64,000 nucleotides of DNA. Source: Subtercola boreus (GTDB lineage Bacteria; Actinomycetota; Actinomycetes; Actinomycetales; Microbacteriaceae). The translations under genes and the position numbers were made by a program. Below, piece by piece: positions 3,449-41,792 of the stretch. The stretch lies in the NCBI RefSeq assembly GCF_006716115.1, contig NZ_VFOO01000001.1, positions 992,001 through 1,056,000 of the forward strand, in the 5' to 3' direction. How positions within the stretch are numbered: position 1 is the first letter of the stretch; every line of letters begins with the position of its first letter. The notes under the pieces were generated by a model that did not search any database, was not told the DNA's origin, and saw nothing but the letters and a program-made list of their open reading frames with translations.

Positions 3449-4762
3449 ATGGGTTCTCTCGGGAGCGCCAGCATCGTCGACGGTCCCGTCGTCTGGGCGG
3501 TCTACGCCGTCGCGGCCCTCCTCGCTCTCTGCCTCCTCCTGGTGCGGCCGAACCGGGGCTGGCTCCGGGGCCGCTGGGTCACGGTCGCCGTCGTCTCGAT
3601 GCTGGTCGGCGCCGGTGCCGGCCTACTGCTCACCTGGTTCACGGATGACCTGCTGAACCTCTTCGGTGTCGACTTCTCGTTCGTGACCCGGGCCTGGATC
3701 GCCGTCTCGGTGGCCGGCGTCGCCCTCGGGTTCTGCTCCGTCGTGGCGGGCCGCCTCCGCCGGAAGCTGCTCGGCATCGTCGGCGTGCTCGTCTTCCTCG
3801 CCACGGGTGCGATGAGCATCAACATCGACATCGGAACCTACCCCACCCTGCAGTCGCTGGCCGGGGTGAGCCCCTACGACACCTCGACGCTGCCGGCGCT
3901 CGGCAGAGCGACCACCCTTCCGATGCCCCTCGAGGCCAGCTGGGTACCGCCCTCCAACCTCCCTGCGGCGGGTTCGATCTCCAGCGTGCGGATCCCGGGA
4001 ACGGTGTCGGGGTTCGACGCCCGGGACGGCCTGGTCTACCTTCCCCCAGCGGCCCTGGTGGCGAACCCGCCGGTGCTGCCTGTCGTCATCGCGCTCTCGG
4101 GCCAGCCCGGAGCGCCGGCGGACCCTCTCGTCTCCGGCCACCTCGCCGAGTCGCTCGACGCGTTCGCGAAGGCGCACCACGGGCTCGCCCCGATCGTCGT
4201 CAGTCCCGACCAGCTCGGTGCCCCCGAGAACAACCCGATGTGCGTCGACGGCGCGCTCGGCAACGCGGCCACCTACCTCACTGTCGATGTCGTCGCCTGG
4301 ATCACCGCGCACCTGCCGGTCGCCGACCCACCAGACCAGTGGGCGATCGCAGGATTCTCCGAGGGCGGCACCTGCGCCGTCCAGCTCGGCGCCGAGCATC
4401 CGGAGCTCTTCGGCGCGCTGCTCGACATCTCGGGCGAGCTCGTGCCGACCAACGGCAGCACCGTGCAGGAGACGATCGACTCCGGTTTCGCGGGCAGCCT
4501 CGCCGCCTACACGGCTGCGCAGCCGCTCACGATCCTGAAGGAACACACACCCTACGCTGGGAGCTTCGCCGTGTTCGCCGTCGGGGAGAACGACGCCGAG
4601 TTCCGAACGACGGCTCTAGAGGTGTCGGCTGCTGCGAAGGCGGCCGGGATGACCACCACCTTCTTCGAGGCACCGGGAAGTGCCCACGACTACACGACGG
4701 CGACCTACGCGTTCGCCCGCGGCGTCGCGCTCCTCTCCTCGCACTGGGGGCTCGCCACGTGA
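3449..4762 (+). CDS. membrane-anchored alpha/beta-hydrolase esterase, partner of the MprF-like gene
   Basis: A 437-aa protein with about four N-terminal membrane helices (residues 9-125) followed by an esterase-D/antigen-85-like hydrolase domain. The nucleophile elbow is G-F-S-E-G-G with Ser near 304; a candidate acid is the Asp of E-N-D-A-E (about 381) and the His is in S-A-H-D-Y (about 411). The open frame runs back to 3056, but ATG 3449 has a CGAGGT Shine-Dalgarno and begins just before the first helix, so that start is chosen. Its stop overlaps the GTG of the next gene. Established precedent: aminoacyl-phosphatidylglycerol synthases are often paired with hydrolases that remove the amino acid (AhyD in Enterococcus faecium). 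I infer the same job here; the substrate is unproven. Confidence 0.85.
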   Translation: MGSLGSASIVDGPVVWAVYAVAALLALCLLLVRPNRGWLRGRWVTVAVVSMLVGAGAGLLLTWFTDDLLNLFGVDFSFVTRAWIAVSVAGVALGFCSVVAGRLRRKLLGIVGVLVFLATGAMSINIDIGTYPTLQSLAGVSPYDTSTLPALGRATTLPMPLEASWVPPSNLPAAGSISSVRIPGTVSGFDARDGLVYLPPAALVANPPVLPVVIALSGQPGAPADPLVSGHLAESLDAFAKAHHGLAPIVVSPDQLGAPENNPMCVDGALGNAATYLTVDVVAWITAHLPVADPPDQWAIAGFSEGGTCAVQLGAEHPELFGALLDISGELVPTNGSTVQETIDSGFAGSLAAYTAAQPLTILKEHTPYAGSFAVFAVGENDAEFRTTALEVSAAAKAAGMTTTFFEAPGSAHDYTTATYAFARGVALLSSHWGLAT

Positions 4763-38016: not shown

Positions 38017-38109
38017 GTGCTGTCCCCCCGAGGTCGAGTCTGACGACGATACCCCACCCGGGCGGCCGGCGGGGAGGCAGGGTCGGTGGTGTGGGCCAGA
38101 CTGGGAGGC

Positions 38110-39288
38110 ATGGACGAACTGTTCGGCACGCTTCGGCGGGCCCCCGACATCGAGGCGCCGAACCTCTTCGCGAGCGACGCGAGCGACCGGCTTGTGCTTG
38201 ACGAGGCCGCCGAGGTGCTGGCGGACTCCGGCAGCGGCGACGTGGTCGTGATCGGCGACCGCTACGGAGCGCTCACCCTCGGTGCAGCCGCGCGATTCGG
38301 GCTGGCGGGCATCCGGAGCCACCAGGACAGGCTGGTCGGCGAGCAGGCGCTCGCCCGGAATGCCGCCACGCTGGGGCTGGTCGACCGGTACGTCTCGCTT
38401 CCGCTGTCGGCAGAGCTCCTGGCGGGCGCACGCGTGGTGCTTCTGCAGGTGTCGCGGGGGCTCGCGGAGCTCGACGAGATCGCCGACGCGATCGCCCGGT
38501 ATGCCGATGAGAACGTTGTCGTCTTCGGCGGCGGGCGCATCAAACACCTGTCGCGTGCCATGAATGAGACGCTCGGCGCGCACTTCTCCGAGGTGCGCGC
38601 GTCGCTCGCCCGGCAGAAGTCGCGCGTGCTGGTGGCGCGCGGTCCGCTCCGGCCGACGGATGCTCCGCCCTACCCGAAGCTCGACCGGAATGCCGAACTG
38701 GGGCTGACGATCGCCGCGCACGGGGGTGTGTTCGCGGGCTCCGGGCTCGACATCGGCACCCGGTTCGTGCTGGAGTACCTCGACCACGCTGTCGGGGAGG
38801 CCGAGGCGGGCACGGTGGATTCTCGGCCCGCGGGCGGTGCGGGTGCGGCCCTCTCGGCCATCGACCTCGGCTGCGGCACCGGGATCATCGCGGCCGCGCT
38901 CGCGCGGAGCTTCCCGCTGCTCGTGGTGACCGCGACAGACCAGTCGGCAGCGGCGTGCGCATCGGCGCGGGCGACGATGCGAGCCAACGGATTCGATGAC
39001 GTGCGGGTGGTGCGCGACGACGGACTGTCGCTGCAGCCGGATTCTTCCGCAGACCTGATTGTCTGCAACCCGCCGTTCCATGTCGGCAGTTCGGTGCACA
39101 CCGGTGTGGCCCTGGGACTCTTCCGTGACGCGGGGCGGGTTCTCCGCCCGGGCGGAGTGCTGCTCACGGTCTTCAACTCGCCGCTCGCCTACCAACCCGA
39201 CCTGCGGCGACTGGTCGGTCCCACCCGGGTGTGGGGGCAGAACGCGAAGTTCACGGTGACGGCCAGCACGAAGCCGGTGGACCGGTGA
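38110..39288 (+). CDS. RsmC/RlmG-like SAM-dependent methyltransferase
   Basis: A 392-aa protein with two related methyltransferase folds, the layout of RsmC/RlmG, which modify guanines in rRNA. The N-terminal half lacks motifs (a pseudo-domain); the C-terminal half has D-L-G-C-G-T-G (about residue 256) for AdoMet and the catalytic N-P-P-F-H. Target base is inferred only. ATG 38110 follows CAGACT (38097-38102) by 7 nt; GGAGG is a single base from the ATG, too close to act, so a leaderless start is likely. Confidence 0.87.
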   Translation: MDELFGTLRRAPDIEAPNLFASDASDRLVLDEAAEVLADSGSGDVVVIGDRYGALTLGAAARFGLAGIRSHQDRLVGEQALARNAATLGLVDRYVSLPLSAELLAGARVVLLQVSRGLAELDEIADAIARYADENVVVFGGGRIKHLSRAMNETLGAHFSEVRASLARQKSRVLVARGPLRPTDAPPYPKLDRNAELGLTIAAHGGVFAGSGLDIGTRFVLEYLDHAVGEAEAGTVDSRPAGGAGAALSAIDLGCGTGIIAAALARSFPLLVVTATDQSAAACASARATMRANGFDDVRVVRDDGLSLQPDSSADLIVCNPPFHVGSSVHTGVALGLFRDAGRVLRPGGVLLTVFNSPLAYQPDLRRLVGPTRVWGQNAKFTVTASTKPVDR

Positions 39289-39325: not shown

Positions 39326-39391
39326 GGCTTATATTCGCCGAATATCAGCCAGATGCTTATATTTACAAAATATCAGCCGTAGGCTTATGCA
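39326..39391 (+). promoter_or_regulatory. AT-rich double dyad and promoter of the satD-like gene
   Basis: Two 24-bp copies, 39327-39350 and 39355-39378, share GCTTATATT at the left and ATATCAGCC at the right, differing only in the central six bases. Each copy is itself a dyad: ATATTCG-C-CGAATAT, then ATATTT-ACA-AAATAT. Centres are 28 bp apart. TAGGCT (39380-39385) follows at once, then 6 nt and ATG 39392. Copy 2 covers the -35 region. The A/T content is far below the GC of the rest of the window. Confidence 0.75.
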
Positions 39392-40054
39392 ATGACATCC
39401 GAGATGAGAGTGGCAGTGATCGTGGATCTGGTCGACTCACGTCGGATCGCCGATCGAGCCGCCGTCCAGCACCTGCTCGAACGAGCCTTCGCAACCGTGA
39501 ACAGGGCCGTCGGCCACGTCGAGCCCTTCGCCGCGACCCTGGGGGACGAGTTCCAGGCCGTCTTCGCCTCGGTGACCGACGCCCTGGAGGCGACACTGCT
39601 CGCCCGGCTCGCGATGCCCGAGGGGCTCGACTGCCGGTTCGGTCTCGGGCGTGGTGAGATCCGGGCGGTCGGCACGGGTCTCACCGGTGTGCTGCAGGAC
39701 GGTTCCGCCTGGTGGGCCGCACGTGCGGCGATCGACGAGGCGCACCGCCGGGCAGACGGCCAGACCGTGACCCTTCGAAGCTGGTACCGGGGCGACGGCG
39801 AGACGTCCTTCACGGACGCGGCCATCAACGCCTACCTGCTCGGCCGCGACTACATCGTCGGCGGAATGAGCGACCGTGAGCGGCGGTTGGCGCTCGGGAG
39901 CTGGCTCGGCCGGTCACAGTCTGTGCTCGCGGAGCAGGAGCAGATCTCGCAGTCGGCTGTGTCGCAGTCTCTCCGGCGTGCCGGTGTCACCGCCCTCCGG
40001 GCCGGTATCGGGGAGTTCCGCGAAGCCGCGACGCAGTCGGGAGTGCCATGCTGA
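39392..40054 (+). CDS. satD: SatD-family protein with C-terminal helix-turn-helix
   Basis: A 220-aa soluble protein of the SatD family, named after a Streptococcus gene in an acid-tolerance operon; function unknown. The N-terminal domain has D12 and D15 in V-I-V-D-L-V-D-S-R and G-D-E-F-Q (51-55), followed by F-G-L-G-R-G-E-I: an order like the metal-binding elements of GGDEF/class III nucleotidyl cyclases. Residues about 172-206 look like a helix-turn-helix (E-Q-E-Q-I-S-Q-S-A-V-S-Q-S-L). ATG 39392 follows TAGGCT by 6 nt (leaderless). It overlaps the membrane gene by 7 bp. I infer autoregulation through the dyads and possible signal synthesis; neither is shown. Confidence 0.8.
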   Translation: MTSEMRVAVIVDLVDSRRIADRAAVQHLLERAFATVNRAVGHVEPFAATLGDEFQAVFASVTDALEATLLARLAMPEGLDCRFGLGRGEIRAVGTGLTGVLQDGSAWWAARAAIDEAHRRADGQTVTLRSWYRGDGETSFTDAAINAYLLGRDYIVGGMSDRERRLALGSWLGRSQSVLAEQEQISQSAVSQSLRRAGVTALRAGIGEFREAATQSGVPC

Positions 40055-40854
40055 CCGCCATCCTGCTGGCCGCCATCGGCTCGGCAGACCTGCTGCGACG
40101 GCAGTTCCGGGCACGTGCCGGGCGTCGTCCGACGCTCGGCGCCGTCCTGTCGGTCGCCGTGGGCTGGTTGCTGCTCGCGGTGCTGGCCACCACCGGCCTC
40201 GGTGTTCCGCCCGGCTGGGTCGCACTCTGCCTTGTGGCGGCCGGTGCCTGGCTCGCCCTGACGACATCGCACGAACACGCGACGGGGCCGGCCGGCCGCG
40301 CGGCGGTCGTCGGTCTCATCGTTGCGGTGGTCGTGCTGCTGCTCTCCGACCGCACGGCGCTGGATCTGTCGGGCTACCTCGTCGACGGGCACCGGGATGC
40401 CGCGGCGGCAGCCGTCCGCGACACGCCGTTGCCCGTGGTGGTGCTCTTCATCGGCGTCGGGCTGTTCCTCGTCGAGAGCGCGAACATCGTCGTACGCATT
40501 GCGCTGCAGACGCGGGTGGAGGTGCCGGAGCTTCCTGAGCAGTCGGACGACGTCGAAACCTCTGAGCCAACAGATGAGGCTCGCACCGATCTCACCCGTT
40601 CCGACCTCAAGGGCGGCCGACTGATCGGCCCGCTCGAACGGCTGCTCATCGTCGCCATCGTGCTGGCCGGGCTCTCACCCATCGCGGCCGCCCTGGTCGC
40701 CGCCAAAGGCATCGTCCGCTTCCCGGAGATCGCTGAAGATGTGAAGGGCGGCGACGGTCTCTCGGGCACCAAAGCCGAGTACTTCCTCGTCGGCAGCCTG
40801 GTGAGCTGGGCGACCGCTGCCGCCGCCATCGCCCTGTTGGTGGCTGCGCGCTGA
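40048..40854 (+). CDS. DUF3307-like membrane protein, partner of satD
   Basis: A 268-aa protein starting 7 bp inside satD. About five hydrophobic helices occupy residues 1-150, then an acidic cytosolic linker (about 155-190), then a conserved end: R-L-I-G-P-L-E-R-L-L-I, A-A-K-G-I-V-R-F, and K-A-E-Y-F-L-V-G-S-L-V-S-W, all of which recall the C-terminus of DUF3307 proteins. SatD and DUF3307 genes are commonly adjacent in bacteria, as I recall. The role may be a membrane effector or sensor for SatD. Assignment to DUF3307 is by eye. Confidence 0.8.
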   Translation: MLTAILLAAIGSADLLRRQFRARAGRRPTLGAVLSVAVGWLLLAVLATTGLGVPPGWVALCLVAAGAWLALTTSHEHATGPAGRAAVVGLIVAVVVLLLSDRTALDLSGYLVDGHRDAAAAAVRDTPLPVVVLFIGVGLFLVESANIVVRIALQTRVEVPELPEQSDDVETSEPTDEARTDLTRSDLKGGRLIGPLERLLIVAIVLAGLSPIAAALVAAKGIVRFPEIAEDVKGGDGLSGTKAEYFLVGSLVSWATAAAAIALLVAAR

Positions 40855-40946: not shown

Positions 40947-41792
40947 GTGGTCACCCCGGTTCCCCCCTTCACCCTCCAGCAGGCCAACGCCGTCATCGAG
41001 GGTCTCTGGCCGCTGGCGAACGCCGAGAGTTGGGATGCACCGGGGCTGCTGAGCGGTGCCGTCGAGGCGGAGGTCACGAGCATCCACCTCGCCGTCGACG
41101 CCGTCGCCGAGACCGTCGACGAAGCGCTCAGCCTCGGGGCCGACCTGCTGCTCGTGCACCACCCGCTGCTGCTCCGCGGGGTGACGACGGTCGCCGAGAC
41201 CACCTACAAGGGTGCTCTGCTCGCCCGGCTCATCCGCGGCGGCTGTGCGCTCGTGGCCGCGCACACGAACGCCGACATCGTCGAGAACGGCGTCTCGGCG
41301 GTCATCGCCCAGCGCCTGGGGCTTCCGGATGCCGTGGCCATCGTTCCGGCCAGCGGACCCTCGGCCGTGCCGGGCACCGGCATCGGGCGCGTCGGCACGC
41401 TCGCCGAGCCGACCACGCTCGGTCGCCTTGCCCGCCAGCTCGCGGAACTGCTGCCCGCGACCGCGACGGGAATCCGGGTCGCGGGGGCCTACGACCAGCC
41501 CGTCTCGCGCATCGCCCTCTGCGGCGGGGCGGGCGACTCGCTGCTCAGGGAACCCGCCGTACGGGGCGCCGACGTCTACATCACGTCGGATCTCCGGCAC
41601 CATCCCGCGTCGGAGGCGAGGGAACAGGCCACGCTCGGAACCGGCCCCGCACTCATCGACGTGTCACACTGGGCGAGCGAGTGGTTGTGGCTCGACGTCG
41701 CGGCAGCCCAGCTGCGGAGCGCCCTGCCGGGTGTCACCGTCACGGTGAGCGACCTCCGCACCGACCCGTGGGACTTCGTCGTGACGCAGTAG
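40947..41792 (+). CDS. Nif3-like dinuclear metal center protein
   Basis: A 281-aa member of the Nif3/YbgI family, sometimes called GTP cyclohydrolase 1 type 2; molecular role unsettled. Metal ligands are visible in L-L-V-H-H-P-L-L-L (two His), A-A-H-T-N-A-D near residue 100-110, and the C-terminal D-V-S-H-W-A-S-E block with His and Glu. It precedes the DUF164 gene as in mycobacteria (Rv2230c-Rv2229c). GTG 40947 follows TACAAT (40934-40939) by 7 nt, probably leaderless. Confidence 0.92.
   Translation: MVTPVPPFTLQQANAVIEGLWPLANAESWDAPGLLSGAVEAEVTSIHLAVDAVAETVDEALSLGADLLLVHHPLLLRGVTTVAETTYKGALLARLIRGGCALVAAHTNADIVENGVSAVIAQRLGLPDAVAIVPASGPSAVPGTGIGRVGTLAEPTTLGRLARQLAELLPATATGIRVAGAYDQPVSRIALCGGAGDSLLREPAVRGADVYITSDLRHHPASEAREQATLGTGPALIDVSHWASEWLWLDVAAAQLRSALPGVTVTVSDLRTDPWDFVVTQ

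Follow-up and report, generated by a model that had tools for sequence, protein, structure and literature searches.

A SatD protein of predicted class III cyclase fold and its conserved membrane partner: a candidate nucleotide-gated pair in Subtercola boreus

What kind of system is encoded by a satD-like gene and the membrane-protein gene that overlaps its end? The question is raised by a two-gene cassette in a stretch of 64,000 nucleotides from Subtercola boreus (henceforth the window), which corresponds to positions 992001–1056000 of a genome of 4,214,389 bases. SatD and DUF3307 are database names without assigned function, and a first reading made from the letters of the DNA (henceforth the sequence-only reading) saw in the cassette a possible signal synthase with a membrane effector. 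Placement of the SatD fold, the distinction between catalytic residues kept and lost, a conserved module in the partner and a putative private operator are contributed here, and make of this orphan pair a testable system. The explanation that we favor, with a confidence a little short of even, is that SatD is a dimeric, class III cyclase-derived, nucleotide-gated autorepressor or guard that holds its membrane partner in check. The two genes are:

39392..40054, forward strand: satD-like gene, 220 amino acids; N-domain of predicted class III cyclase fold and C-terminal helix-turn-helix (HTH); Pfam PF16264.
40048..40854, forward strand: membrane partner gene, 268 amino acids, multi-pass.

The two open reading frames overlap by 7 bp (40048–40054) and the second encodes several long hydrophobic helices, both as first read. 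SatD matches Pfam PF16264 (E 3.3e-19, residues 7–199; 69.8 bits against a curated cut-off of 29) and contains both V-D-L-V-D-S-R and G-D-E-F-Q, motifs that had been taken to link it to GGDEF domains or class III cyclases. Neither PADLOC nor the Pfam Guanylate_cyc profile matches SatD, the source genome returns no Guanylate_cyc (PF00211) match, and a plain sequence search of the PDB with SatD gave no convincing relative (best E 0.12). When the family profile was compared with PDB sequences the best matches were HTH proteins, in the C-terminal half, where there is also a weak sigma70-ECF match (residues 158–197, under its cut-off). An AlphaFold2 model built from 76 sequences (predicted local distance difference test, pLDDT, 96.3; predicted template modeling score, pTM, 0.92) shows an N-domain of beta-alpha-beta-beta-alpha-beta order, and after it a domain made up of helices only; its helical end, the HTH profile matches and the Pfam match bear out the satD-like gene with C-terminal HTH of the earlier reading. 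The parts concerned are:

39404..39790, forward strand: SatD N-domain, residues 5–133; predicted beta-alpha-beta-beta-alpha-beta core as in nucleotidyl cyclases.
39425..39427, 39545..39547 and 39722..39724, forward strand: codons of D12, D52 and R111 of the N-domain.
39872..40039, forward strand: predicted C-terminal helical domain with HTH, residues 161–216, from the secondary structure of the model and the HTH profile matches.

Foldseek comparison of the SatD model with the PDB returned 25 chains at E≤0.001 (several being chains of the same proteins), every one of which is a class III cyclase. The best match is a photoactivated adenylyl cyclase (E 6.7e-5) and the second a Burkholderia cyclic UMP (uridine monophosphate) synthase, 7r65, the PycC of Pycsar (pyrimidine cyclase system for antiphage resistance; E 8.0e-5); Rv1900c and Ma1120 are also among the class III matches. 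The first GGDEF-bearing chain is found at rank 27 (E 1.1e-3). Comparison of the SatD profile with 27 actinobacterial class III cyclases by hhalign gave a probability of 87.3% (E 3.8e-6 for a single comparison; SatD residues 8–90), in which D12 falls on the first of the metal-Asp motifs and TLGDE lines up with TVGDE, the class III consensus, whereas comparison with 26 GGDEF domains gave 6.3%, and the reading as a GGDEF diguanylate cyclase was rejected. Of the 81 SatDs described below, 78 have V, A, I or L immediately ahead of GDE and none has G, that is, the GG[DE]EF motif is absent. A class III nucleotidyl cyclase fold for the SatD N-domain is supported by the model and these comparisons: of the two links first drawn, class III stands and GGDEF falls.

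Conservation was assessed in 81 non-redundant SatDs drawn from the window and from 171 SatD loci, the latter including repeat fetches of some places. D12, S16, G51, D52, E53, G86 and G104 are present in all 81, Q55 in 80 and R111 in 79; the form GDExQ occurs in 80. In one locus (L154) the GDE motif reads GLDE, and D52 is there aligned across a shifted residue. Conservation of D12 and GDE was thus as anticipated in the earlier reading; that of D15 was not: D stands at this position in 19 of the 81, and D15 as a conserved ligand is ruled out. The spacing of D12 and D52 is 40 residues in 45 SatDs (range 32–44) and 43–45 residues in the 26 class III cyclases measured, and R111 is tentatively equated with the transition-state Arg of cyclases by its A-A-R motif, which lies beyond the end of the hhalign alignment.

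Two residues typical of class III cyclases are missing. At position 48 (the Lys of KTVGD) the 81 SatDs have A (27), P (25), R (11), F (8), V (3), Q (3), I (3) or T (1), and never Lys; four residues before R111, at the place of the Asn of class III cyclases, they have W (58), F (18), Y (4) or L (1), that is, an aromatic residue in 80 and Asn in none. With both missing, the signal synthase first proposed is unproven. In PMC11224242 the metal Asp residues of EaPycC are given as D102 and D146, and cytidine triphosphate is read by F100, R142 and Q144; the SatD positions corresponding to the last three are mostly non-polar. Metal and phosphate contacts look kept in SatD, and base and transition-state contacts changed, so that SatD may be either an enzyme whose chemistry has changed or a sensor of Mg-nucleotide, a choice that sequence cannot decide.

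The partner is the less tractable of the two proteins. Its model is all helical (pLDDT 89.2); Foldseek of the model against the PDB returned nothing at E≤0.001 (best E 1.2), and comparison of a partner profile with PDB sequences led nowhere. What the partner shares with others is its C-terminal part:

40447..40848, forward strand: conserved C-terminal module of the partner, residues 134–267, common to archaeal and fusobacterial DUF3307 proteins.

The Pfam DUF3307 domain (PF11750), found in the Haloplanus and Fusobacterium partners, gives no match to the window partner up to E 1. Residues 134–263 nevertheless align with residues 148–247 of a Haloplanus DUF3307 protein (BLASTP, 34% identity, 130 columns, E 2e-12), a stretch outside the Pfam DUF3307 domain of that protein (15–115), and the DUF3307 label first given to the partner is therefore apt for the module and not for the Pfam domain. 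Six residues (G190, G194, E197, K220, R224, G249) do not vary in 57 partners, and three more (R198, E244, S253) are found in 56; the L154 partner has R198 and S253 changed and no counterpart of E244. Judged by their charge, R198, K220 and R224 may form a cluster, perhaps on the cytosolic side, able to take up an anionic ligand, and a membrane effector, as first suggested, is a plausible role for the protein. In Sphingomonas the module stands almost alone, as a protein of 138 amino acids. On Agrobacterium pAt (L173, 3977–4384) satD ends at 3977 and a module open reading frame can start at 3980, the annotated start being at 4112.

Module and SatD are closely linked. A module gene lies directly downstream of satD on the same strand in 158 of the 171 loci, and nearby on the opposite strand in L054, L062 and L012/L037 (one genome); the stretch examined holds none in L087, L141, L146–L150 and L168, and L161 ends at a contig end. 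A search that started from the partner located 29 places, spread over 26 of 60 genomes, and all 20 loci fetched (L021–L040) hold SatD; two of the nine places not fetched are second pieces of fetched genes and the rest are weak. A plasmid search with the Haloplanus partner found nine records, and in all six that were read (two haloarchaeal, Fusobacterium, Tsukamurella, Sphingomonas and one of four from Agrobacterium) a SatD-like gene directly precedes the module.

The state of the SatD active site also bears on the partner. Among the 81 SatDs four are without a partner (L087, L147, L149 and L168) and in L154 the module gene is degenerate. R111 is lost in L147 and L154, that is, in two of these five as against none of the other 76. 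A SatD from Aerococcus (L174, outside the 81) has neither GDE nor R111, leaves the first 56 profile positions unaligned, and is followed by a DUF975 gene rather than the module. That loss of the active site accompanies loss of the partner suggests that the SatD site may serve the partner; general decay is the alternative.

Some of these loci are of interest in themselves. The motif-less SatD-like protein of the Aerococcus tenax plasmid (L174, 3917–6709) is encoded beside genes annotated as ribonuclease and barstar. L146–L148 and L150 form one SatD clade without a membrane partner, represented among the 81 by L147; the genes around these SatDs presumably encode malic enzyme and fumarase subunits. 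In Rathayibacter sp. VKM Ac-2630 (L087, 4798–6624) SatD has neither recognizable operator nor module, and lies near the genes that in relatives (L073, L077) flank the full cassette.

Directly before the satD start codon are repeats in which the sequence-only reading had seen an unusual operator; the repeats themselves are confirmed:

39328..39348, forward strand: putative operator copy 1, CTTATATTCGCCGAATATCAG, an imperfect 21-bp inverted repeat.
39356..39376, forward strand: putative operator copy 2, CTTATATTTACAAAATATCAG, 28 bp after copy 1.
39384..39388, forward strand: third half-site, CTTAT, 28 bp on from copy 2 and 3 bp before the start codon; it may overlap a -10 region.

The repeats have the consensus CTTATATTN5AATATCAG and a period of 28 bp. 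The 21-bp pattern (5-base spacer, ≤2 mismatches) occurs in the 4,214,389-base genome only as the two copies upstream of satD; a reversed control pattern has no match there. Across the 81 SatD upstream regions (start codons chosen by script) the best consensus match reaches at least 13 of 16 in 29, as against 12 of 1620 shuffles. In 28 of the 81 genes an 8+8 palindrome of at least seven pairs is found no more than 50 bp from the start (4.6% in shuffles), the remaining 53 not standing out on this measure. Palindromes of at least six pairs are placed most often 15–16 bp before the start (24 of 56). The half-site sequence varies by lineage (CTTAT, CTTCA, CTGAT), with the palindrome itself kept, and a similar third half-site is present in 28 of 38 loci that have a palindrome of at least six pairs 10–24 bp before the start, where shuffles lead one to expect 15. 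Because the pattern is unique in the genome to the satD promoter region, and fits the operator expected of an autorepressor, it suggests that SatD may be a local autorepressor. An Rfam scan returned nothing useful, and a terminator scan, run together with a promoter scan, led nowhere.

Is the cassette a fixed part of the genome? It lies between two genes that mark its insertion site:

38086..39288, forward strand: left flanking gene, left edge of the insertion site.
40947..41792, forward strand: right flanking gene, right edge of the insertion site.

From their motifs we take the products to be methyltransferase-like and Nif3-like, respectively. In four of 11 congeneric genomes (G001, G004, G005, G009) the cassette is absent and the flanking genes are adjacent, with 64–169 bp between aligned ends; in four (G007, G008, G010, G011) it is placed as in the window; and in three (G002, G003, G006) it is on the other side of the methyltransferase-like gene. 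Since presence and placement vary among these congeners, the cassette behaves as a discrete unit. More widely, Pfam finds SatD in 18 of the 60 relatives searched, in 72 of 299 genomes of the family and in 26 of 396 of the phylum, the nearest named SatD relatives found being from Subtercola (77% identity), and the two-gene unit occurs in several bacterial phyla and some archaea. The Pfam counts are too low for the family as a whole, because the SatD of a Tsukamurella plasmid (L171, 3084–3680), of the TADQxxSR subfamily, escapes the Pfam SatD profile up to E 0.1. Plasmid records with SatD or partner matches are few. A phage-borne cassette is not supported: the queries used match nothing in 50,697 phage records or in viral contigs.

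Enrichment in defense islands had been suggested as a check on the first reading. PADLOC (E≤1e-8) matched 43 families in 140 SatD neighbors and 31 in 140 controls, which is no clear enrichment on a crude measure that counts families rather than proteins, since in both sets a single protein can be hit by many models; PD-T4-6 accounts for at least 14 of the 25 families listed for the neighbors. The neighbors were sampled at random from the 200 non-redundant members of a set of 447 genes, those called up to three genes away from SatD in 80 genome-contig loci, proteins longer than 700 amino acids being left out; the controls came from 192 genes (189 when made non-redundant) that occupy 20 stretches in 20 SatD-positive genomes. 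The first 25 of 163 neighbor families are mostly ordinary metabolic ones.

A hint to the contrary comes from genes for the Pycsar membrane protein PycTM, which are found in three SatD loci. At L168, where the gene is convergent, it was noticed on reading a partner-less locus; at L087, where no operator is recognized and the module is gone, it came from the neighbor scans and lies about 600 bp upstream; and L154 emerged from a search of 80 SatD-positive genomes, five of which have PycTM. The expectation for the 1.31 Mb of SatD loci, from 21 hits in 396 phylum genomes, is about 0.014–0.023; a Fisher value of 0.0076 and the Poisson values are post hoc, and the Poisson values assume mean genome sizes of 3–5 Mb. 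In 26 loci around PycTM hits SatD is present only in those of two genomes, G537 and G389. Shared genomic hotspots are as likely an account of this proximity as a functional one (a replacement effector). In the first of the two genomes (L181, 8038–9996) PycTM lies between two SatD genes of different subfamilies. In the second, which is that of L154, a Pycsar with its own cyclase stands beside the degenerate SatD cassette: its Pycsar-like operon (L182, 5419–8181) encodes a 527-amino-acid protein with two cyclase-like halves, a 238-amino-acid protein and then PycTM. A relative of this PycC was not found in a 17-kb stretch of G537. By its motifs the 238-amino-acid protein resembles a conjugating enzyme of the E2 type that ends in a SEC-C tail, and such a gene inside a Pycsar operon looks unusual.

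How might such a pair work? According to the explanation that we favor, a cyclase-type SatD homodimer would set its two HTHs on the inverted repeats and repress its own operon. A Mg-nucleotide bound (or a nucleotide made) between the SatD subunits would decide whether the partner is restrained, and a change in nucleotide state, through phage, stress or depletion, would lift the restraint and allow the membrane protein to alter or damage the membrane. The sign of the interaction, restraint rather than activation, is proposed because satD of Streptococcus pyogenes, according to PMC11323703, is essential in emm1, emm28 and emm49, yet present in only 178 of 249 genomes; by analogy SatD may be holding something in check, perhaps the membrane protein.

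A broader statement is, in our view, unlikely as it stands: that SatD–partner units are an undescribed class of nucleotide-guarded membrane systems of archaea and several bacterial phyla, in which one altered-site protein of class III cyclase fold would both make (or sense) a restraining nucleotide and, by binding DNA, repress its own effector, with a logic like that of Panoptes and a different enzyme and effector.

A number of points weigh against a nucleotide-gated guard. Without the substrate Lys and Asn SatD may only bind, or may not even bind, nucleotides. Foldseek TM-scores are low across the 25 chains (0.32–0.42 by query length), because the HTH half of SatD is unmatched. By Pfam, model and fold search neither a nucleotide-binding domain nor an effector fold is recognizable in the partner. 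The association of active-site loss with partner loss comes from three lineages and was noticed afterwards, and L087, L149 and L168 keep D12, D52 and R111 despite having no module gene. Upstream of satD a consensus scan found no TTGACA/TATAAT promoter, the G+C content of both genes resembles the flanks and so gives no sign of recent transfer, and the PADLOC comparison, as described, is without clear enrichment.

Several of these points suit a simpler explanation, possible if rather improbable, in which SatD is only a ligand-sensing autorepressor, a dead cyclase fold that binds nucleotide or metal and controls a housekeeping membrane protein (a transporter, for example, or an envelope-stress or acid-tolerance protein) with no toxicity or role in defense. 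The missing Lys and Asn, an operator pattern unique in the genome, neighbors that are mostly metabolic, the unremarkable G+C content and the ties of sat genes to acid tolerance in PMC11323703 and PMC10326533 would all be expected of it. However, patchy presence in a family and presence or absence at one site among congeners are unusual for a housekeeping function, as is a gene both essential and accessory, like satD in S. pyogenes; and nearly all SatDs retain the Arg and the Asp pair of metal-binding type.

A distinctly improbable alternative is an activating second messenger, as in Pycsar or CBASS (cyclic oligonucleotide-based antiphage signaling system), where phage would switch on the SatD cyclase and the product would open a membrane effector. 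The class III fold, the Pycsar cyclic UMP synthase as second Foldseek match and PycTM in three SatD loci where about 0.02 are expected (the usual partner being missing in two, L087 and L168) speak for it, but the catalytic Lys and Asn are lost, PADLOC matches are not clearly enriched, matches are few in plasmid records and, with the queries used, absent from phage records and viral contigs, the neighbor of L154 is a Pycsar with a cyclase of its own, and the essentiality of satD argues for restraint and not activation.

A classical toxin–antitoxin pair, with SatD neutralizing the membrane protein by contact, repressing its own synthesis and using the cyclase fold as scaffold only, has in its favor the gene overlap, the putative operator of autoregulatory type and a partner that is never without SatD in 20 partner-first loci, while SatD occurs without it, but is very improbable, since conservation of the Arg and of an Asp pair of metal-binding type would be superfluous in a scaffold, and since toxins of such pairs are usually small and the partner has about 250 amino acids and many helices.

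If the nucleotide-gated explanation holds, and the nucleotide site of SatD controls a membrane protein, the pair would represent a second-messenger or guard module of a new kind, which could account for a satD that some strains cannot do without and others lack. No link between SatD and cyclases was found in the open-access literature searched.

How does the pair compare with systems already known? With class III cyclases (Ma1120, Rv1900c and the photoactivated enzymes) SatD shares the predicted fold, the order of metal Asp residues, the TVGDE motif and an Arg rightly placed by motif; it differs in having no substrate Lys and no transition-state Asn, in GDExQ, in its C-terminal HTH and in a putative operator of its own. 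The cyclase-like DUF2652 proteins predicted in PMC4886424, which names SatD 0 times, are likewise uncharacterized bacterial class III relatives with a metal Asp pair and, among the table rows listed, without the transition-state Asn; in contrast to SatD they form another family and, in those rows, have Lys/Glu (or Arg) retained where the substrate is contacted. The pairs of SatD and DUF3307 (PF11750) on Haloplanus and Halorientalis plasmids have the same SatD family and gene order, with a 4-bp overlap; the window partner, unlike theirs, has no Pfam DUF3307 domain and shares the C-terminal module only.

Kinship with Pycsar or CBASS, proposed at the outset, did not survive, and a role in defense is unproven. 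Pycsar (PycC with PycTM or PycTIR) resembles the pair in joining a class III fold to a separate membrane protein, but membership fails, neither protein matching a Pycsar profile of Pfam (PycTM, Guanylate_cyc) or PADLOC. CBASS (CD-NTase with Cap effector) fails likewise: there is no PADLOC match, and the predicted fold of SatD is that of class III cyclases. An inhibitory logic of the Panoptes kind, or that of a repressor, fits an essential but accessory satD better than an activating signal does. Panoptes itself (OptS with OptE) consists, like the SatD pair, of a two-gene operon for a nucleotide-synthase-like protein and a membrane protein. Membership fails here too: Panoptes has an mCpol synthase and an S-2TM-beta effector, whereas SatD resembles class III cyclases and the model of the partner is all helical. 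PMC12657218 describes OptS as an mCpol-domain protein whose product restrains a membrane effector, OptE, with a soluble beta-barrel; a synthase that restrains its effector is what is suggested for SatD also.

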